From assembly GCA_945877425.1 (NCBI GenBank), contig CAMCRZ010000005.1, positions 1 through 64,000 on the forward strand: a stretch of 64,000 bases of DNA. The letters are read 5' to 3'. Both the position numbers and the translations under genes were made by a program. Below are positions 14,140-23,786 of the stretch, one piece after another. The notes under the pieces are model-generated. The model ran no database searches. It saw only the letters and a list, made by a program, of their open reading frames with translations, and had not been told where the DNA came from. Each line of letters starts with the position of its first letter. The first letter of the stretch is position 1. Source of the DNA: an uncultured Treponema sp. (GTDB taxonomy: Bacteria > Spirochaetota > Spirochaetia > Treponematales > Treponemataceae).

Positions 14140-14763
14140 ATGGCATCAAAACAAAACAGTTACAGTAAGCCTGATTTCTGGTCTCAAAAAGCATTCAAGG
14201 AAGGTTATCCTGCAAGAAGCGTTTATAAACTTCAGGAAATTGACCAGAAATTCGGAATGTTAAAAAAAGGCTCAGTTGCATTAGATTTAGGTTCTGCTCC
14301 GGGAAGCTGGACAACATGGCTTTTACGGAATTTAAGCGGTTCGGGAAAAGTTGTTTCCTGTGACCTTAATCCGCTGGCAAAAACTGTTACAGCAGAAAAT
14401 CTTGTTTTTTTTCAGGGTGATTTGTTAAGCGAAGAAATACGCACTCAAATAAAGCAGCAGGGACCTTACGATTTAGTTGTATGTGATGCCGCTCCTTTAA
14501 CTACAGGCAACAGGACGATTGATACTTTACGTTCAAAAGGTCTTGTGGAAATGGCTATCTGGTATGCAGATAAGATGCTTAAACCAGGCGGAAACTTTTG
14601 CGTTAAGATTTTCCAGAATGGCGACCAGCAGAAACTTCTTATGAAAATGCGGGAAATTTTTACTTCTGCAAGAGGATTTAAGCCGGAAGCCTGCCGTTCA
14701 GAATCATTTGAAACTTACCTCATAGGATTAAACAAAAAGGTGTGCAACGATGAAAAAAATTGA
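14140..14763 (+). CDS. rlmE: 23S rRNA (uridine-2'-O) methyltransferase
   Basis: This FtsJ/RrmJ-family enzyme methylates the ribose of a conserved 23S rRNA uridine (U2552 in E. coli). The 207-residue protein has SARS-type start SVYKLQEID, the SAM loop ALDLGSAPGSWT at 48-58, and the complete K-D-K-E catalytic tetrad K30, D116, K156, E191. Length is normal. No clear Shine-Dalgarno is visible before the ATG and no well-placed -10 is seen either. It overlaps or abuts the following LysM-M23 gene, so the two are probably cotranscribed. Confidence 0.9.
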   Translation: MASKQNSYSKPDFWSQKAFKEGYPARSVYKLQEIDQKFGMLKKGSVALDLGSAPGSWTTWLLRNLSGSGKVVSCDLNPLAKTVTAENLVFFQGDLLSEEIRTQIKQQGPYDLVVCDAAPLTTGNRTIDTLRSKGLVEMAIWYADKMLKPGGNFCVKIFQNGDQQKLLMKMREIFTSARGFKPEACRSESFETYLIGLNKKVCNDEKN

Positions 14764-14806
14764 GATTTTGAACGGAATGTGCTATAGTAAAAAACTGGAA
14801 TTTAAA

Positions 14807-15763
14807 ATGAAACTTAAGGCGTTTGCTATATATGCCTGCTCTACTTTAGCAGCTGCGGCTGTAGTTGCCGGCGGTACATTTGCATTTATACATTTTCGCA
14901 ATCAGACTTCGGGACAAGGCGGACTTGATACACCGGGTCTGCCTCTTTATGCCGATGCAATTCTTGAAAATGACAAAGACTTGCCTGTTTCGGAAAATTT
15001 TTCTGACCTTGATACGCTGGACAATAAAATCACCTACTTTACTTACAGAGTTAAAAGCGGCGACATGATTGGCATGATTGCAGAAAAGTACGGCGTTACT
15101 CAAGATACAATTATAAGCGTAAACCAGATCCGCTCTTCACGTTTAATTCAAATCGGACAGTATCTGCGCATTCCTTCTGAGCCTGGAATTCTTTATACAG
15201 TTAAAACAGGAAACGAAACAGTTGAATCTATTTCAAAAAAGTATAACGTAGATGCCCAGCGATGTGCCTTACTGAACAATCTTTCTTTAGACGAAGAACT
15301 TTCTGCAGGAAAAACACTTTTTGTGCCGGATGCACTTCTTGACTGGGTAACACGTCAGGAAATTAACGGCGATCTTTTCAAGCGTCCACTTAAAGGCGGA
15401 TATTACATTTCTTCACCATACGGATACCGCAAAAATCCGTTTGATTCTTCAAGAAGAACTTTCCACTCTGGAATTGACATGGCTTGCAAGACAGGAACTT
15501 CAATTTATGCAGCTTTAGACGGAACTGTAACTACTGCAGGCTGGAGCAACACTTACGGAAATTACGTAATCATTACACATCATTCGGGATATAAATCACT
15601 TTACGGCCACATGAGCCAGATTCTTGTAAAAAAAGGCGCTCACGTTACAACAAGCACGGTAATTGGAAAAGTCGGAAGCACAGGATTAAGTACAGGACCG
15701 CACCTACATTTTACTGTTTACAAAAACGGCATTACAGTTAATCCTTCAAGTTTGTGGAATTAA
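14807..15763 (+). CDS. LysM and M23 peptidase domain protein
   Basis: The 318-residue protein has an N-terminal membrane anchor or signal (MKLKAFAIYACSTLAAAAVV). Two LysM modules follow (YRVKSGDMIGMIAEKYGV... and YTVKTGNETVESISKKYNV...) for peptidoglycan binding, and a C-terminal M23 metallopeptidase domain. Zinc ligands are H220 and D224 in HSGID, and H301 in HLHF, with H299 as catalytic partner. It should cleave peptide cross-links in the periplasm. The ATG at 14807 is chosen because the hydrophobic segment begins there; an upstream in-frame ATG (14750) would add 19 residues and overlap rlmE. Confidence 0.85.
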   Translation: MKLKAFAIYACSTLAAAAVVAGGTFAFIHFRNQTSGQGGLDTPGLPLYADAILENDKDLPVSENFSDLDTLDNKITYFTYRVKSGDMIGMIAEKYGVTQDTIISVNQIRSSRLIQIGQYLRIPSEPGILYTVKTGNETVESISKKYNVDAQRCALLNNLSLDEELSAGKTLFVPDALLDWVTRQEINGDLFKRPLKGGYYISSPYGYRKNPFDSSRRTFHSGIDMACKTGTSIYAALDGTVTTAGWSNTYGNYVIITHHSGYKSLYGHMSQILVKKGAHVTTSTVIGKVGSTGLSTGPHLHFTVYKNGITVNPSSLWN

Positions 15764-16506
15764 TAGCGCTGAAGTTTCGTAATCTGATATTTTGAAACCA
15801 TTGGAGTGCCGCGCATAAAAATCGTTTCTTTTTCAATATTCATCATCTGGAAGAAACCAAGTGTGCCGCGCTTATTGTTGGAAGCCAGACCTTTTAACTC
15901 ATAGACAAGCGTATCGTTTATGTAAATGTTTATCTGATTTTCGCTGACTGTTTCAACTTTAATTGTATTGGAAATTGATTTGTCTTTTATAGGATTTGAT
16001 TCTGACGTTGAAAGGATTTGTGCTATTTCAGTCATTTCTGCTTTTATAGGTTCTTTGCCGGTTCCGCCACCGTAATGATAAATTACAATAGTTCCCTGTG
16101 ATGTAAAGGAAATCATGTAGAAACTGCTTTCATCAAGGTTAACGTTCAGCAAAAATCCGTATTCTCCAACAGGCGTACTTTCCGGGTTTTCACATTTAAA
16201 TCTTCCTTCAAAGCCGCATACGTTATAGCCAATGTTCTGGAGGGAAATGTTATTTATGCTGCTTGCAGTTATTGAACTGTCAGCGGAAACGGTGTACTTG
16301 CAAAAATCATAGCCTTCATCATTATCTGCTTCAACTTTACCGGTTTTCTGCAAAATTGTATTTCTTACTTCATCAAAATGATTTTCAACATCAATTGAAA
16401 AAGTTTCCCAGTGAGTAGTGAATTCTTCTTCTGTTTTACAACTTGTAATGCCAGATAATAATAGAAAAATAAGCAGGGCAATAGCTGTGTTACATATTTT
16501 CTTCAT
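15760..16506 (-). CDS. Lipoprotein, function unknown
   Basis: The 248-residue protein has a signal peptide and lipobox SGITSC (Cys23). The mature part is mostly beta-prone (GFEGRFKCE, YGFLLNVNLDESSFYMISFTSQGTIVIYHYGGG, NTIKVETVSENQINIYINDTLVYEL), a pattern seen in concanavalin-like or jelly-roll domains, although I cannot name the family. The ribosome-binding site GGAGG is good. It overlaps the convergent LysM-M23 gene by four bases and lies downstream of a run of larger lipoproteins on the same strand, separated from them by a terminator. Confidence 0.65.
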   Translation of the reverse strand: MKKICNTAIALLIFLLLSGITSCKTEEEFTTHWETFSIDVENHFDEVRNTILQKTGKVEADNDEGYDFCKYTVSADSSITASSINNISLQNIGYNVCGFEGRFKCENPESTPVGEYGFLLNVNLDESSFYMISFTSQGTIVIYHYGGGTGKEPIKAEMTEIAQILSTSESNPIKDKSISNTIKVETVSENQINIYINDTLVYELKGLASNNKRGTLGFFQMMNIEKETIFMRGTPMVSKYQITKLQRY

Positions 16507-16557: not shown

Positions 16558-16599
16558 AGAAAGTCCCGACTTCTTTTGGAAATCGGGGCCTTCTTTTTT
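16558..16599. terminator. Terminator after the large beta-helix-like lipoprotein
   Basis: Arms 16558-16569 (AGAAAGTCCCGA) and 16583-16594 (TCGGGGCCTTCT) pair with two G-U type mismatches around a 13-base loop. T tracts occur on both strands. Confidence 0.65.
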
Positions 16600-16623: not shown

Positions 16624-19476
16624 TTAGTCAGTAATAGAAATTCTGAATGTTTCAGAGAATGGAGTTGGACTAGTTGCCATGCTTGGTGTTCCAAGTTCAA
16701 AGTAAACCCTTAAGTAGTAATTGTCCGCATTTGTATTTGCAAAGAGTTCGTTTAATACTACAGAGAATTGGTAAGATGCTTCGGTTTCATCACCACTTGC
16801 TACGGCTGTAATGTAATTTACTGTAATCCAACTATTTGCTTCCGCATCAACATTAGAATTTTCATCTTCAGATTCTGCAAGATAAATAATCATAGAACCG
16901 TCTGTCAAATCACTGTTGCCCTTACCGTCTGTAACTGAAGCTTCTTGTTTAAGTGCATTAATAACGAAAGTATCATTTGCAGGATACGTTACAGGATCCT
17001 GTGATTTTACAGTTAAAGTTCCTGTAATTGTTCTTAAAGCAGCATCTCCACTTGCTATATCTGTCTTAGTAAGTACAACAGGTGTCATGCTGATTGTTCC
17101 GGTGTAGTTACCTGCATCGAATGTTGTCTTAACAGAAGTATCCTTAGATTTTACGATTATGCAGCCGTAAGAGCTTGAGCCGACTTCCGTATCAACATCA
17201 AGAACTTTCTTTAAGCCTTGAGTCAGTGCACGAGCATCACTGTTGTAGTAATTACCTGTAGCAGCACTTCCTGCACCTTGTACGGCAAATCTTGTAGCTT
17301 CACTGTATTCAGCAGCATTTGAACTGAAATCTTTTGCATCAGGATCTGCAACAATTACTGAACGGAAGTCTGCAATTGTACCTGATACATCTGTATTTAC
17401 CTGGTGATAAAGATAATTCAATACTGTATGACCGTATCCGCCTGAAGAAGGTGTATTTCCGTCTGACACAACTATGTTTTTAACTGTTGATGTTGCATCT
17501 GTTGAATCCATATAGAATACGCCGTTTCCTGTTACATCTGTCTGTGCTGCATTAAGCTGTACGTAACCAGTTCTAGGAGCGTGTGTTGTCAAGTCAGAAC
17601 AAATAGATGAGTTAGAAAGGTAACAGTCTGCACCAAGTTCAAACTTATCTGTATCTGCTGAACCGTTCCAGTCAAAGTTTACAAGATAAAGTCTTACTCC
17701 GTCTGAGCTTGCTGCGTAAGTACCTAAAGCGTCTAATCCGTCAGATGCACCATTGTTTGCATTTACGAATGTTACGTTCTTGCTTAATGTTGCTCTGTTT
17801 GCTGATTTAAATGCACGGATTGTAAGGTTCATTCCTTTTGCTGCAGCTAAAGCGGCTTGTGCGGCATCGCAAGTTACAGTGTTTCCGCCTAAATCGCTAG
17901 GTAAAACTATACCTTCGTAAGTAGCAGCAATATTTGTAAATGAAACTTCTGCAGGTGCAGCTTCTGCTCCATCAAGAACAATGTTCCAGTCAGTTGCATC
18001 ATTTCCGGCAGCAGATGCTGAATCATAAAGTGCTGCACGTTGAACTATAATTGCGTTAACTGCATCCTGAACTGTTGCAAACGGATTGAACAAAGAACCG
18101 TCTGGTGTACCTGTTGCTGCAGGAAGAGAAGCTCCTGTTCCGCTTACGTAGAATACTGTACGCTGGAATTTAATAACGTCGTTTACTGTAAATGTATAAT
18201 ACTTGCTTTTGTAGTCGTCTGCATCTGTTCCTAAGAAAGAAGTACCGGCTGACATAGTCTGTACTGTATCAGCTGTTTGTGAGTCAGCTTCTGTTCCGTC
18301 AAATACTGCATCTACTTCACTTGCCTGTACCAGTTCTGTTCCTGAATAGAAAGAAGATGTACCAAGGATTTTTGACTTTTGGTTTTTCCATACAGTTAAA
18401 ACGTCGTGTAAAGCAAATACATCGTTCTTTTTTGTTGCATATTCAGATGCTTCTGTGTTAAGGAATGAAATGTCAAGGTCGTATGTACCAACTGCAACGT
18501 ATGGCTTAAACTCTATCTTTTTTCCGCCTAAAGTGGAAACGTCATAAACAAAACTTCCAGATATACCGGCAGCATCACGAGGAGTCCATTTTACTTCAAC
18601 TGCTTTAATAGTGCGGCTGCTTTCGGAAAGAGTTGTGTCTGATGCTGTGTCAGGTAAATCAATTATAATAACTGGCTGACCTGCACCGTCAATTCCTTTT
18701 GTAGATGCTGGAATGACTATGTTGGCAATTTCATTACCTGTTGAACTGTTTTCCCTAAAGATAACGTTTCCGCTATTATCAATGTCAACGTAAATTGCAA
18801 CTGTTCCTTTTATAACTGCATCTTCCTTCAAGCCTTCAATTATTTTTTCACGAACTGCGTAGTAAGTATGCTCGTTGTCGGTATTATATTCACCTATGCC
18901 TGAATCATAATCTTGAAATGTTCCGCTAGATTTATCACCGTAGATTGAATCTTTTGTATGATCTTTAGAGTCAGAAACTTTTTCTTGAGAAATGACTGCA
19001 GGAGATTTGCTTGTGCCGTAAGCTGTAAGGTAATAAAGCTTTTTAACTTTAAGTACAAGCGTAATGTTGTCTGTAATGTTTACGTCTTCTGCATAGAAAG
19101 GTGTAACTACAACTTCACCTGTTTCTATAGACTTTGCTGCTGAACAATCTGCGTCTTCAATGTCGTCCCAAGTATCTGCTGTAGGGCCTGCTCCGTCTGC
19201 AAATGATGTAGAGCCTGTAACTGAAAAATAAAGTTCAGGATTATCAGGCATAACTGTACGATAATTTTTTATCAGACTGTTCAATGAATTCATTTTTAAC
19301 TTAACCCATTGATCTCCATTTTCGTCTGTAAAAACTTCATTTACACTGATTGATGACAAGTCGCCAGTGCGATCCGGAGTGTTACTTCCAAATGACTTTT
19401 CCTTTACTCCAAAAGAGCATCCTAAAAGGAAAAAAACTGTTATTAATGAAAAAAAGTGACAAATATTTTTGTTCAT
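16624..19476 (-). CDS. Large surface lipoprotein, beta-helix-like
   Basis: The 950-residue protein has lipobox FFLLGC (Cys20). The N-terminal half has immunoglobulin-like beta stretches. Residues ~440-480 contain GTPDGSLFNPFATVQDAVNAI, a phrase typical of proteins that lead into a right-handed parallel beta helix, followed by short repeated strand/turn stretches rich in Asn, Asp, Ala, Thr and Ser. Such proteins are often adhesins or polysaccharide-binding surface proteins. The composition (high Ala/Thr/Ser/Asp, low Lys late) fits an exposed protein. A GAGGAG ribosome-binding site precedes it. I do not recognise a named family. Confidence 0.65.
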   Translation of the reverse strand: MNKNICHFFSLITVFFLLGCSFGVKEKSFGSNTPDRTGDLSSISVNEVFTDENGDQWVKLKMNSLNSLIKNYRTVMPDNPELYFSVTGSTSFADGAGPTADTWDDIEDADCSAAKSIETGEVVVTPFYAEDVNITDNITLVLKVKKLYYLTAYGTSKSPAVISQEKVSDSKDHTKDSIYGDKSSGTFQDYDSGIGEYNTDNEHTYYAVREKIIEGLKEDAVIKGTVAIYVDIDNSGNVIFRENSSTGNEIANIVIPASTKGIDGAGQPVIIIDLPDTASDTTLSESSRTIKAVEVKWTPRDAAGISGSFVYDVSTLGGKKIEFKPYVAVGTYDLDISFLNTEASEYATKKNDVFALHDVLTVWKNQKSKILGTSSFYSGTELVQASEVDAVFDGTEADSQTADTVQTMSAGTSFLGTDADDYKSKYYTFTVNDVIKFQRTVFYVSGTGASLPAATGTPDGSLFNPFATVQDAVNAIIVQRAALYDSASAAGNDATDWNIVLDGAEAAPAEVSFTNIAATYEGIVLPSDLGGNTVTCDAAQAALAAAKGMNLTIRAFKSANRATLSKNVTFVNANNGASDGLDALGTYAASSDGVRLYLVNFDWNGSADTDKFELGADCYLSNSSICSDLTTHAPRTGYVQLNAAQTDVTGNGVFYMDSTDATSTVKNIVVSDGNTPSSGGYGHTVLNYLYHQVNTDVSGTIADFRSVIVADPDAKDFSSNAAEYSEATRFAVQGAGSAATGNYYNSDARALTQGLKKVLDVDTEVGSSSYGCIIVKSKDTSVKTTFDAGNYTGTISMTPVVLTKTDIASGDAALRTITGTLTVKSQDPVTYPANDTFVINALKQEASVTDGKGNSDLTDGSMIIYLAESEDENSNVDAEANSWITVNYITAVASGDETEASYQFSVVLNELFANTNADNYYLRVYFELGTPSMATSPTPFSETFRISITD

Positions 19477-19597
19477 AAGTTCTCCTCTTTTTTCAAAATA
19501 TAAAAACCTTAGTGCTTATGTTATTCCAATTTTAATTAAATATCAATCTACGCGGTGGAGTTTATTGCGGATTGATTGCCTGCGAGTTCGCACTTGT

Positions 19598-19632
19598 CGA
19601 GAGGGGCTGGTGAGCAAGTACGCCGGGGCGGT
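19598..19632. repeat. Dispersed repeat copy B
   Basis: CGAGAGGGG (19598-19606) and GCAAGTACGCCGGGGCGG (19614-19631) match copies A and D. It ends exactly at the stop codon of the 680-residue lipoprotein gene. Confidence 0.5.
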
Positions 19633-21674
19633 TATTCCTGTACGTAGACTTCTTCGAATGTGATGTTTTGGGCAGGGACAATAAGTTCTGTGCCGCTTGT
19701 AAGCTTACATTCCATCTTTATGAAAAAGTTCTGGTTGTTTAAATCATCAACGTTTGACTGAGCTATAAACTCCGCAAGATTTATTGCTGCTTCACACTGC
19801 TTTTCTGTAAGTTCAGATTCCGTTACCTGAAGGTTTGTGCCTGATTCACCTACAACATATTCACTGACTTCTTTTTTAAGATTGTCGTTATCAATAAAAG
19901 TGTAGATTGTCTGAGGGCTTTCTTCTACATTCTGGCAAAGCGTAACTTTTAAAGATGCAATTCTTCCGGCAGCCTCTTCATCACCTAAAAGAACTTCTTC
20001 ACCAGTTTCCTTGTCTTTTTCGTAAAGCTTAACTTTTCCTGAAACAGTTCCGTCGTTAAAAAGCCGCACAACTTCTCCGTTAGATTTTGTCTTTACAAGA
20101 ATAATTATATTGTCCTTGTCAAATTCAAACTCGCACCGTAAATCAGAAAGTCCCACTTCAACTTCAACAGGAACACGTCTCCAGTTACCGCTTGTAATAA
20201 TCCAATTTGACTCTTCTGAATCAAGATATTTGTCTTTACGTCCGTAAGCAAAAATTTCGTACAGCGTTTTGTCAACTAAGTAAACATCTTTTTCGTTTTG
20301 AACACAGCCTTCCTGATAATCAGCATATTCATCGTGCTTTAATTCACCGTTGGGGCTTATGTCAAATTTCAAACTGTAAATTTCATAATAAATACTTGCG
20401 TCCTGAATGTTTTTTACAACAGTTCCAACTGCTTTTACAGGAGCAAACATATTCAGCACATTGTATGTTTTTCCATCAGGAATAGGAATTGTAACTGCCC
20501 CTTCATTGTATTTTTTTCCGTTGCAATATGCCGAAGGAGTTTCCAGCCGGAGATATCGGGTGTTCAGTTTAACTTCAGAGCGCAGGCCTTTTTCATCTTC
20601 CAGTGTGATTGTGTAAGTGTGAACAGAATCCCGCTGAGAATAATGACCGTTGTCCCAGATGTAAACAGGATGATTTCCCGGCGTAAAAGATACGGCAGGC
20701 ATTCCGTCATTATAGAAACCGTTATTTTCTGAAATCTTTTTTAAATTTTCAACTAAGCCTGTTTCCTTTTCATTGAAAAAACTTGTAAATGTTTCGTTTT
20801 CAAAATCAATTTCAAGCTCTATGCCTTTTTCAAATTTTTCTGTTCTGTCGCTGTCATTGCAGTCCAAACCTGTAACGTAAATTTTTTTAACGTCACGGTG
20901 AATTCCGTCTTTATTAAAAAGTGCATCCGGCAGATTAAAGCAAATTACATAGTTGCCGTCTGTGTCTGTGCTTTTCCGTGAACTGTCCACCATAATGCAG
21001 CTTCCCTGAACAAAAGGCGGCGGCGTGTTTATGCGGATTTTTGTCTGGTAAAGCGGAATGTTTGCATGAAAATTTTCAGGCTCTTGCGCAGGAACTTCAA
21101 TCATCAGGTCTTCGTAACTTTTTTTCCATGCTTCAACGTATGAGGCAAGTTCTTCATCAGTGTAAAAATCACTTTCAGAAGGTGCATACGTATAATTTTG
21201 CGCAAGAACTCCAAGCTTAGGATTAAAATCTACGCCTGGCTGACTGCGTTCAATTCTGTACAAAAGCTGCTGACCCAATTCGTAAACAACTGTGTCGTCG
21301 TTTATATTTGTTTTACTGTTTGTATACTTAAAAATGTCCTTTTCTATTTCTGTGTAAAAACGGCTGTATTTTTCTATTGTATAGTTGATTTTATCGTCTA
21401 TTTCCGAGCGGAGACAATAATCAATTTTAAGTCCCTGAGGATTTTGAAGCAAAAACGTAATGTCCATGTCGCCGGTAGATGGAATTGAAATGTAACCTTC
21501 ATTGTCTATGTGAACAGTATGACTGAAATGTGTTTCTGCAATTTCAACACGATTGCCCTTATCTTTTAAATAATCAGTAATGGAATCCTGCTGAAAAAAA
21601 CTGCATGATGAAAGAGTTAATGCCAACGTACCGAGAAAAATCAACTGTAAGTTAAAAGTTCTGCTGTTTTTCAA
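19632..21674 (-). CDS. Large lipoprotein, function unknown
   Basis: The 680-residue protein has a signal peptide and lipobox LTLSSC (Cys24). The mature part alternates beta-rich segments with acidic loops (THFSHTVHIDNEGYISIPSTGDMDITFLLQNPQG; HPVYIWDNGHYSQRDSVHTYTITLEDEKG), suggesting several immunoglobulin-like domains. It is translationally coupled to the upstream barrel-type protein (four-base overlap ATGA) and lies ahead of the 950-residue lipoprotein, so the three may form one surface complex. I know no family for it. Confidence 0.65.
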   Translation of the reverse strand: MKNSRTFNLQLIFLGTLALTLSSCSFFQQDSITDYLKDKGNRVEIAETHFSHTVHIDNEGYISIPSTGDMDITFLLQNPQGLKIDYCLRSEIDDKINYTIEKYSRFYTEIEKDIFKYTNSKTNINDDTVVYELGQQLLYRIERSQPGVDFNPKLGVLAQNYTYAPSESDFYTDEELASYVEAWKKSYEDLMIEVPAQEPENFHANIPLYQTKIRINTPPPFVQGSCIMVDSSRKSTDTDGNYVICFNLPDALFNKDGIHRDVKKIYVTGLDCNDSDRTEKFEKGIELEIDFENETFTSFFNEKETGLVENLKKISENNGFYNDGMPAVSFTPGNHPVYIWDNGHYSQRDSVHTYTITLEDEKGLRSEVKLNTRYLRLETPSAYCNGKKYNEGAVTIPIPDGKTYNVLNMFAPVKAVGTVVKNIQDASIYYEIYSLKFDISPNGELKHDEYADYQEGCVQNEKDVYLVDKTLYEIFAYGRKDKYLDSEESNWIITSGNWRRVPVEVEVGLSDLRCEFEFDKDNIIILVKTKSNGEVVRLFNDGTVSGKVKLYEKDKETGEEVLLGDEEAAGRIASLKVTLCQNVEESPQTIYTFIDNDNLKKEVSEYVVGESGTNLQVTESELTEKQCEAAINLAEFIAQSNVDDLNNQNFFIKMECKLTSGTELIVPAQNITFEEVYVQE

Positions 21675-22642
21675 AAACGTGTTACCATTCCTATATTAAT
21701 TTCAAGCTGAGGAAAAAATCCTTTTGTGAAAACAGGCCAGTGTAAAGTTAAACCTGCAGTTCCGCCAAAGTGATTGTAAATGTAAACATTATACGAACCG
21801 CCTGCCACTACATCAGGATATAACCAGTTTGTTGTCTCTGACTTTAAGCCGTTTGAGTATTCAAGAAACATATTGTAAATGTAAAGTATTCCTGCGCCAA
21901 AAAAAATGTTCACTTGATTTCTATTCTTATGGAAAAACTTTAAGCCTAAAGTTAAGTCGCCTGTAATTTTGTCAGCACTTATATTATAACGGTCAGCATT
22001 ACTTTCAAGAAGACTCCATGAACCAAGCAGCCCTAAAGAAAATTTGTGAGTGTCTGACTTTCCTTTAAAAATGTATTCTCCTGAAAAAGACAAGCCTTTA
22101 AAATTAAATCCGGCAAAGTCGTTAAAGTATGATTGCAAAAAATCTTCTGTAAAAGACGGAGAATAAAATGCCGTGTAATTAAGCGAAAAGTTCAGCCGGC
22201 AGTTTGAAGGCAGAAAAGTTCCTGGCAAGCGCAAGTCCTGATCTGTTTTAAGCAGCTGGTTTTCTTCCTGCTGATTTTGCGTGTAGTCTTGATTTTCTGC
22301 GGATGATTTTTCTTCTGTGTCTGAAGTGCTGCCTGCGTTGTTTTTTTCAGAATCATTTTGAATGGAGAAAGAATCATCTTCGCCTTTTATTCCGCCAGAC
22401 CAGTTTTCCTTGTTGTAAAAATCAGGTTTGTTCGGATCCATTTGAGCACCGCCTTGAGTGCCGCTTTCGTTTAAGCCTGAGCTTTCATTTTCATCGGATT
22501 CTTCCTGCTCCAAAGCCGAACCGTTCATAAAGTAAGGGTCATTTTGAATTTTATCTATAGGAATTCCATTTTTACCATAAGCAAACGATGTTATAAGGAG
22601 AAAATTTAAAACTAAATTCTGGAAAATTTTTCTTTTCATCAC
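21671..22642 (-). CDS. Predicted outer-membrane beta-barrel protein with acidic linker
   Basis: The 323-residue protein has an N-terminal signal sequence (residues 1-23). A very acidic, low-complexity linker of about 110 residues (Glu/Asp/Asn/Ser/Gln-rich) follows, then alternating strands from residue ~145 (CRLNFSLNYTAFYSPSF, HKFSLGLLGSWSLL, GDLTLGLKFFHKN, QVNIFFGAGILYIY), ending in MVTRF. A terminal Phe is the usual outer-membrane insertion signal. The ribosome-binding site is AAGGTG. It is the first gene of the lipoprotein run. Role inferred: outer-membrane anchor or channel for the two following lipoproteins. Confidence 0.65.
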   Translation of the reverse strand: MMKRKIFQNLVLNFLLITSFAYGKNGIPIDKIQNDPYFMNGSALEQEESDENESSGLNESGTQGGAQMDPNKPDFYNKENWSGGIKGEDDSFSIQNDSEKNNAGSTSDTEEKSSAENQDYTQNQQEENQLLKTDQDLRLPGTFLPSNCRLNFSLNYTAFYSPSFTEDFLQSYFNDFAGFNFKGLSFSGEYIFKGKSDTHKFSLGLLGSWSLLESNADRYNISADKITGDLTLGLKFFHKNRNQVNIFFGAGILYIYNMFLEYSNGLKSETTNWLYPDVVAGGSYNVYIYNHFGGTAGLTLHWPVFTKGFFPQLEINIGMVTRF

Positions 22643-22706: not shown

Positions 22707-23786
22707 CTAGTCAAAATTGAATATCTCGTTGTCGAAAATTAAGTCTGATGTTCTGATTTCGTTTCCCTTACAAGATGTGCCTGCCCTTTCAAGACAGTTT
22801 TCCAGTTCCCGAATATTTCCGGGCCAGTCGTATTCGTAAAGTTTTGCAACTGCTTCCATAGAAATAGTTTTTCCAATCCGCCTGCAGTAAGATAAAGCCA
22901 GACTGTAAATGTCCTCTTTGCGATGACGTAACGCCGGAACTTTTATAATAAAAACTGCAATTCTATTCAGAAACTGCTTGCGGAATTTTTTCTGCCTTAC
23001 TCTTTCGGCAAGATCTGCGTCTGTTGCAAAAATCATTCTGGCATCAGTGTAAACGCTTTTTAAACTTCCTGAAGGATAATAACACTTGCTGTCAAGAATG
23101 CTGTAAAGTTTTATCTGAAGGTCGTAATTTAATTCTGCTATTTCATCAAAAAAAATTGTGCCTTTGGAAACAGTTTCAAACAATCCGGGAAAATCTTTTT
23201 CTGCTCCAGTGAATGCTCCTTTTTTAAAACCGAACAAAGTGCTTTCTATTAAGTTTTCATTTAAAACGCTTAGACATACAACTTCGAATTTTTCATGTCT
23301 GCGGCTTGAATTGTTGTGGATAAGATTTGCCGTAAAGTTTTTACCGCTGCCGCTTTCGCCTAAAAGAAGAACCGGCACTGAATTTGATGCGGCTTGCTGG
23401 ACTTTAAGAAGGTATTCTTTTTTTTCAGGATTTATAAAAGCTGTTTTTTCGTTTAGGAAGATTGATTTTTTTGAATTGATTTTTATGAAATGAAGATGTG
23501 GAAAAGCTGAACGCAAAATTGCAAACGGTATATTTTGATTTACAGTAATTAAAACAGAAACCGGCTCTTTTTTCTGTGCTACTGATTTGAACCTGAATAG
23601 AAACTGTTCTTGGGAATAACAGGAAAAATCATCTACACAAAACAGGTGATTTTTGAACTTGACTTTATTTTCCAGAAACCGGCAGACGAACTCTACTGAA
23701 GACAATTCATTTTTAATGCTGTTAAGGCACCAGGCAACTACAGCGGAACTGTTTGTCGCCAAAATAAACTGTTCATTTTGTTCCAC
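22707..23786 (-). CDS. Sigma-54-type AAA+ activator lacking a DNA-binding domain
   Basis: The 359-residue protein has an unrecognised N-terminal domain (1-115) and a sigma-54-interacting AAA+ domain: Walker A GESGSGKN at 143-150, the sigma-54 contact loop GAFTGA at 190-195, Walker B TIFFDEIAEL at 210-219 and WPGNIREL at 321-328. The usual C-terminal Fis-type helix-turn-helix is absent: only about 30 residues follow. It may therefore activate sigma-54 promoters from solution or through a partner. No -24/-12 promoter was seen by eye in the window. It follows the glycosyltransferase gene by eight bases, so it shares that operon. Confidence 0.85.
   Translation of the reverse strand: MEQNEQFILATNSSAVVAWCLNSIKNELSSVEFVCRFLENKVKFKNHLFCVDDFSCYSQEQFLFRFKSVAQKKEPVSVLITVNQNIPFAILRSAFPHLHFIKINSKKSIFLNEKTAFINPEKKEYLLKVQQAASNSVPVLLLGESGSGKNFTANLIHNNSSRRHEKFEVVCLSVLNENLIESTLFGFKKGAFTGAEKDFPGLFETVSKGTIFFDEIAELNYDLQIKLYSILDSKCYYPSGSLKSVYTDARMIFATDADLAERVRQKKFRKQFLNRIAVFIIKVPALRHRKEDIYSLALSYCRRIGKTISMEAVAKLYEYDWPGNIRELENCLERAGTSCKGNEIRTSDLIFDNEIFNFD

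Follow-up and report, generated by a model that had tools for sequence, protein, structure and literature searches.

The window discussed here is a stretch of 64,000 nucleotides from an uncultured Treponema sp. (contig CAMCRZ010000005.1), and our subject is a group of three minus-strand genes: barrel first, then LIP680, then LIP950. A first-pass annotation, made from the letters alone, had described a barrel-type protein whose gene overlaps that of a large lipoprotein, with a second lipoprotein next on the same strand. The positions in the open reading frame (ORF) list bear this out exactly. We believe these three unnamed proteins can now be read as one branch of a module, barrel plus lipoprotein, that is spread across the treponeme family. 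The parts of the locus are listed here; A-type sets barrels of this kind apart from the B-type barrels described below.

21671-22642, minus strand: A-type barrel gene, GTG start, 323 amino acids; ordinary signal peptide, acidic linker and predicted C-terminal eight-stranded barrel
21674-22240, minus strand: barrel domain, residues 135-323, the segment used for the structure model
19632-21674, minus strand: LIP680 gene, TTG start, 680 amino acids; predicted lipoprotein
16624-19476, minus strand: LIP950 gene, ATG start, 950 amino acids; predicted lipoprotein with an immunoglobulin (Ig)-like region (our own reading) and a beta-helix-type entry motif
19477-19631, minus strand: LIP680/LIP950 spacer, 155 bases, containing a piece of a dispersed repeat
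16565-16587, minus strand: terminator-like hairpin after LIP950, 9 pairs and then T-rich; a weak candidate for the end of the unit

The barrel stop and the LIP680 start share 4 bases (TTGA), which suggests translational coupling; this overlap, like the others given here, has a length that hinges on the first possible start codon. The hairpin after LIP950 is weak evidence because the region holds 7 terminator-like sites against 6.7 in shuffled sequence. A promoter-like site precedes the next lipoprotein gene after LIP950, and such sites are equally frequent in shuffles. Within the spacer, a 26-base piece (19606-19631, minus strand) has 3 further copies in the genome at 92% identity. Those copies share longer flanks with one another, so a dispersed repeat appears to reach into the spacer.

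The three proteins give no Pfam or NCBIfam match above the curated cut-off. To that extent the annotation was right that none has a recognised family, but it missed the treponeme-wide barrel family described below. It also called LIP680 and LIP950 lipoproteins. Both are predicted to be so, with signal peptides that end in a lipobox cysteine (LSSC at residues 21-24 in LIP680, LLGC at residues 17-20 in LIP950); lipoboxes and signal peptides were read by eye. The linker it described as acidic, at about residues 25-146 of the barrel protein, has 26 D/E against 8 K/R and a net charge of -18. The barrel call itself agrees with AlphaFold2, which was given residues 135-323 (the last 189) and two relatives and returned eight antiparallel strands (predicted local distance difference test, pLDDT, 71.5; predicted template modelling score, pTM, 0.64). 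The structural matches of this model include OmpA (Z 17.0, 1bxw), OmpW (16.7) and NspA (16.4), with 152-165 residues aligned; the top OmpA match, at Z 17.4, is to an entry that is itself a model. Sequence identity to the OmpA/OmpW/OprG-type structural matches is 8-12%. The window barrel domain is thus modelled as an OmpA/OmpW-like, eight-stranded outer-membrane barrel.

Searching 118 genomes of the genus with the window barrel gave, besides its closest relatives, weak matches that are mostly frames of about 400-470 residues. These are the B-type proteins, which have an fn3/TIG-like N-terminal half and the same C-terminal barrel (hhalign 98.9%, 170-172 columns). The fn3/TIG label is our own naming, and the Pfam TIG and Y_Y_Y matches lie under cut-off. 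The window barrel scores 46.7 bits with a profile made from B-type rows only, with no A-type rows; among 150 window ORFs the runner-up reaches 2.6, and the highest of 2000 shuffles 9.8. A combined profile, whose 16 rows include that of the window, finds matches in 130 of 195 genomes and in 13 of the 20 genera of the family, some of these matches covering the N-terminal half only; many of the genomes used are drafts. On these profile comparisons we place the window barrel domain in a treponeme-wide superfamily that includes TP0483 of Treponema pallidum. The match between A-type and B-type is limited to the barrel domain, and the remainder of the window protein is acidic linker, without fn3/TIG-like domains. 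In a tree of 35 barrel domains a single branch, supported at 100/100, sets all 7 A-type rows apart from the rest, a result that carries a long-branch warning. We file the window barrel as a separate, barrel-only branch of the superfamily and not as a TP0483-type protein. No relative turned up in viral contigs when these were scanned with the B-type barrel alignment and with the three proteins of the locus.

A-type barrels occur in 8 of 200 genomes of the genus: those of the window, G001, G095, G103, G240, G241, G246 and G262. The profile was built from the first four, so the other four are independent. Five of the eight (window, G001, G095, G240, G241) have a LIP680-type gene immediately downstream, and the 4-base overlap recurs in G240 and G241. 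LIP950 matches that cover more than 500 of the 911 positions of the profile are found in 4 of the 200 genomes (window, G001, G095, G241), and in all four they follow A-type barrel and LIP680-type genes; G001 has two copies. The window, G001 and G095 built the LIP950 profile but were first found with single proteins, while G241 is independent. Its LIP950 match is cut by the contig end, and the order is kept at 23-28% identity. In the other 14 genomes with LIP950 matches these cover at most about 180 positions, at the entry motif. The annotation had named scattering of the genes in relatives as the finding that would speak against its idea; LIP950 is clustered in all four genomes with long matches.

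The main branch of the superfamily has a different setting. Its order is nucleotide cyclase, FecR protein, fn3/TIG-like barrel and often a giant lipoprotein. Among 43 B-type loci a FecR-type gene is directly upstream of the barrel, or fused to it, in 40, with the cyclase present too in 39 of these. A lipoprotein-like gene is next downstream of the barrel in 29 of the 43 (10 of 20 in the genus-spread set, L106-L127). These loci are a non-random sample. L056-L069 came from window-protein matches, L106-L127 from the genus spread and a scan of named genomes, L133 from its FecR gene, and L173-L187 as A-type loci or from barrel or LIP680 matches. The total is 45 rows minus two L056 rows (a FecR frame and a split-off fn3-like frame), and it excludes L119, whose barrel frame was lost in gene picking, and L110 and L179, which duplicate L127 and L055. 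Where cyclase and FecR are separate frames, at 37 loci, the two overlap by 29-38 bases in 34. Pfam, run on three B-type loci, gave FecR above cut-off in all three, Guanylate_cyc likewise in all three and HAMP in one; the Ig-like repeats of the FecR protein are our own reading, with Pfam matches under cut-off. We infer that the cyclase makes cyclic AMP. Three giant lipoproteins were scanned, with LRR_5 above cut-off in two and Pectate_lyase_5 just under it in two.

Several individual loci of this branch deserve mention. The scan of named genomes' contigs with the B-type alignment gave 2 loci, in T. socranskii and T. putidum. At L056:8024-10164 (plus strand) the barrel protein is split in two frames, one fn3-like and one with a short N-terminus plus the barrel. 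At L106:7687-12360 (plus strand), in G132, a barrel and giant-lipoprotein pair stands behind a ClpA-type gene without cyclase or FecR; G132 also carries a full operon (L107), so such pairs can stand apart from the operon. In two genera the FecR and barrel genes form one open frame (L185:5512-9747, minus strand; L121:4561-8685, plus strand). We did not use these as proof of one complex, since each junction has a signal-peptide-like stretch and the fused frames may be assembly errors or cleaved products. The fn3/TIG-like parts of L107:7369-8577 and L112:7818-9059 (both plus strand) match the LIC11435 family (NCBIfam NF047756) under cut-off. That match appears in two of the three B-type barrels scanned, at 57 and 42 bits, far below the curated cut-off of 380, and neither the A-type barrel of G001 nor that of the window gives one. 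The name LIC11435 points to Leptospira, and the operon may therefore predate the treponemes.

LIP680, the second protein of the locus, also has a counterpart in this operon. It is 44% identical in alignment to its G001 counterpart. A profile of four LIP680-type proteins matches 15 giant lipoproteins encoded behind B-type barrels, within their N-terminal 400 residues (hhalign probability 100, E 8e-44, 385 columns), and the homologous stretch in LIP680 is its first 490 residues or so. By this comparison LIP680 is a short form of those giants, so each gene of the barrel-LIP680 pair has its homologue in the barrel and giant-lipoprotein genes of the cyclase operon. The window barrel has its LIP680-type gene next downstream and no adjoining cyclase/FecR operon, and the window genome (92% complete) has no FecR match and one barrel match, its own. 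FecR genes are present in five of the eight A-type genomes (G001, G095, G103, G241, G262), so the A-type and B-type modules often coexist; none was found in the genomes of the window, G240 (73% complete) or G246 (57% complete).

LIP950 is harder to place. The entry motif named by the annotation is there, at about residues 443-477, and is conserved in all four alignment rows, from three genomes. The beta-helix itself is a putative one, and LIP950 has no beta-helix-type Pfam match. Among 10 frames that share the entry-motif region, Beta_helix appears under cut-off in one and Chlam_PMP in two, one of them above cut-off. A search of PDB sequences with LIP950 alone gave no match, and a search with its alignment gave three weak ones, all confined to the N-terminal 53 positions. 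A 976-residue lipoprotein near a dnaX-type gene in G103 (L055:14741-17671, minus strand) also has an entry-type motif, together with GGG..N-type repeats (our own reading), and no Pfam match.

The connection to a protein of known activity comes through TP0483. A FecR homologue was found in genome G137, and the gene behind it (locus L133) encodes a 374-residue protein from an internal Met. This protein contains both published TP0483 fibronectin-binding peptides (PMC4368718, PMC5421087), at residues 274-289 and 316-333, and so it is TP0483, for which fibronectin binding has been reported (PMC4368718). Residues 35-372 match the B-type profile at 60 bits (hhalign 98.5%). We take its FecR gene to be TP0484 and the cyclase gene to be TP0485. 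The map positions of TP0484 and TP0486 (PMC2408589) roughly agree with these names. No gene adjoins TP0483 downstream on its own strand. When a joint alignment is laid on the window model, the peptides fall at strand 3, loop 2 and strand 4 and at loop 3 and strand 6. Loops 2 and 3, which carry them, are predicted to face outward if the N-terminus is periplasmic, as we assume. In the excerpts available, PMC5421087 and PMC6685089 class TP0483 as an outer membrane protein, and a review calls its structure little known (PMC10118025).

We lean towards the view that the three genes specify a treponemal surface complex of the outer membrane, in which the barrel anchors or displays LIP680 and LIP950 is an adhesive partner. 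The barrel would span the outer membrane, and its acidic linker would lie in the periplasm. It would bind LIP680, the product of its overlapping and probably translationally coupled neighbour, and so anchor or display it on the surface. LIP950, if its motif is rightly read as a beta-helix entry, would form an extended adhesive or stalk partner, and the loops and lipoproteins would bind ligands carried by the host or by neighbouring cells. For the main branch, contact might be relayed through the fn3/TIG-like part of the barrel and the FecR protein to the cyclase in the inner membrane. Since the window barrel lacks the fn3/TIG-like part and no FecR gene was found in its genome, the module here most likely works in attachment without a cyclase relay. 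The annotation had suggested a surface or adhesion machine. Adhesion is plausible because the barrel domain is homologous to a family in which one member, TP0483, binds fibronectin, while the complex and its place on the surface are our inference.

A number of observations weigh against this view. LIP950 sits 155 bases from LIP680, with promoter-like sites no commoner than in shuffles, and in G001 a 287-residue protein lies between the two. No LIP680-type gene is seen in three of the eight A-type genomes: in G103 and G246 the barrel is followed by other genes, and the G262 sequence stops inside the barrel gene. The LIP680-type gene of G095 encodes a 307-residue protein recognised by the profile only. 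The annotation proposed that the gene order be sought in relatives, and what holds for LIP950 does not hold for LIP680: a LIP680-like gene is directly behind a barrel at 9 of 27 loci and has no barrel directly upstream at the other 18. This count comes from 34 rows outside the window and G001 cluster, 7 of which were not counted, and two of the 27 loci have just 275-304 upstream bases visible. The annotation also proposed structure prediction. This gave the eight strands of the barrel in one confident model of five (the other four had pLDDT 35-51), but a single-sequence AlphaFold2 model of LIP680 was discarded at pLDDT 34. TP0483 has no match to the A-type profile (hhalign probability 0.1), a search of G137 (1,139,633 bases) with the B-type barrel alignment gave no match at E 0.001, and the larger family is the sole connection of TP0483 to the window barrel. 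Tomson and colleagues, according to an excerpt of the review (PMC10118025), saw no evidence that TP0483 lies in the outer membrane, and the available part of a paper modelling T. pallidum outer membrane proteins (PMC8407342) does not mention it.

One alternative, which we consider fairly unlikely, is that the barrel is a dedicated export aid with no ligand role of its own, and that LIP680 is threaded through it or carried by it to the outer leaflet in an RcsF-like manner. The overlapping genes and the conserved pairing of barrel and lipoprotein would suit an export aid well. However, an eight-stranded barrel, like those of the OmpA type, has little lumen for a 680-residue protein, and TP0483 has no downstream neighbour on its strand, yet its fibronectin-binding peptides map to the barrel domain. 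RcsF offers the model: in its complexes with barrels it takes up a transmembrane orientation and keeps its lipid end at the cell surface (PMC4942254, in part).

The dispute over where TP0483 lies, and the fact that B-type barrels are encoded with FecR proteins, would also fit a periplasm-facing arrangement. Here the barrel would be an envelope tether or signalling piece, with LIP680 and LIP950 on the inner leaflet and no adhesion. We find this distinctly unlikely. It has to contend with the OmpA/OmpW-like model, with loops that coincide with fibronectin-binding peptides, with the papers that class TP0483 as an outer membrane protein, and with giant partner lipoproteins whose LRR_5 and near-cut-off Pectate_lyase_5 ('adhesive') matches were given above. 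Finally, a mere island of independent surface proteins between conserved genes is very improbable: settings do differ, the A-type barrel being directly behind a gene read as recR in G001, G103 and G262 and elsewhere in the others (the window's recR-type gene is 6.5 kb off on the opposite strand), and the 18 LIP680-like loci would fit, but G241 keeps the order at low identity and a separate operon, the B-type, repeats the barrel-lipoprotein pairing.

Returning to the surface complex, a wider proposal can be offered only tentatively, as a possibility we would not yet bet on. Treponemes may have an undescribed trans-envelope contact sensor in which a giant surface lipoprotein, held by an eight-stranded barrel, controls a nucleotide cyclase of the inner membrane by way of fn3/TIG-like and FecR/Ig-like parts in the periplasm. 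TP0483 would then be a genuine barrel of the outer membrane, with its ligand-binding peptides as surface loops, and a remnant of the sensor in the agent of syphilis, and the window locus would be an offshoot, a stand-alone adhesion complex with a beta-helix-type partner. Such a sensor would amount to a predicted nucleotide-second-messenger route from the treponemal surface. It is important that TP0483, whose place in the outer membrane is disputed, gains a structural reading from the family comparison, with fn3/TIG-like domains followed by a barrel and the peptides predicted on loops 2 and 3. We found nothing in the accessible portions of the open-licence literature that describes this barrel-lipoprotein module or calls TP0483 an eight-stranded barrel.

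Other genes near the cluster were considered as members. Directly upstream of the barrel (22707-23786, minus strand) lies a gene for a 359-residue sigma-54 activator-type AAA+ protein, in which Pfam finds the AAA domain and lid only. We rejected it as a linked member because no such match lies beside the barrel in the G001 locus. We also rejected lip248 (15760-16506) as a fourth member, given the terminator-like site before it and no match to it in the relatives whose loci were compared. At 14750-15763 (plus strand) there is an M23 peptidase-like protein with LysM-like segments (our own reading). TP0155, the other fibronectin-binding protein named alongside TP0483, is described as LysM plus M23 in the part of PMC5421087 available.

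Among known systems, a Slam translocon is defined by a TPR domain plus a Slam-type barrel. We rejected this identification, as there is no such Pfam or NCBIfam match and the predicted barrel has 8 strands. The barrels of the OmpA/OmpW/OprG type resemble the window barrel model in fold (Z 15-17 over about 160 residues), but the window protein has no Pfam or NCBIfam match to these families and its linker is N-terminal. RcsF is small, and its gene lies apart from those of its barrels, unlike LIP680. The likeness to RcsF with OmpA and other barrels would be one of working, the pairing of a lipoprotein with an outer-membrane barrel (PMC7553776, PMC4942254, both in part). TP0126, TP0479, TP0698 and TP0733 of T. 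pallidum, given as eight-stranded single-domain barrels in the available part of PMC8407342, are alike as eight-stranded treponemal barrels and are set beside the window barrel by description only. The closest comparison in our opinion is TP0483 itself. Its C-terminal part falls in the same barrel superfamily through the B-type profile, and loops 2 and 3 correspond. It differs in having fn3/TIG-like N-terminal domains, a place behind cyclase and FecR genes and no lipoprotein gene next to it, whereas the window protein carries an acidic linker and has lipoprotein genes for neighbours.

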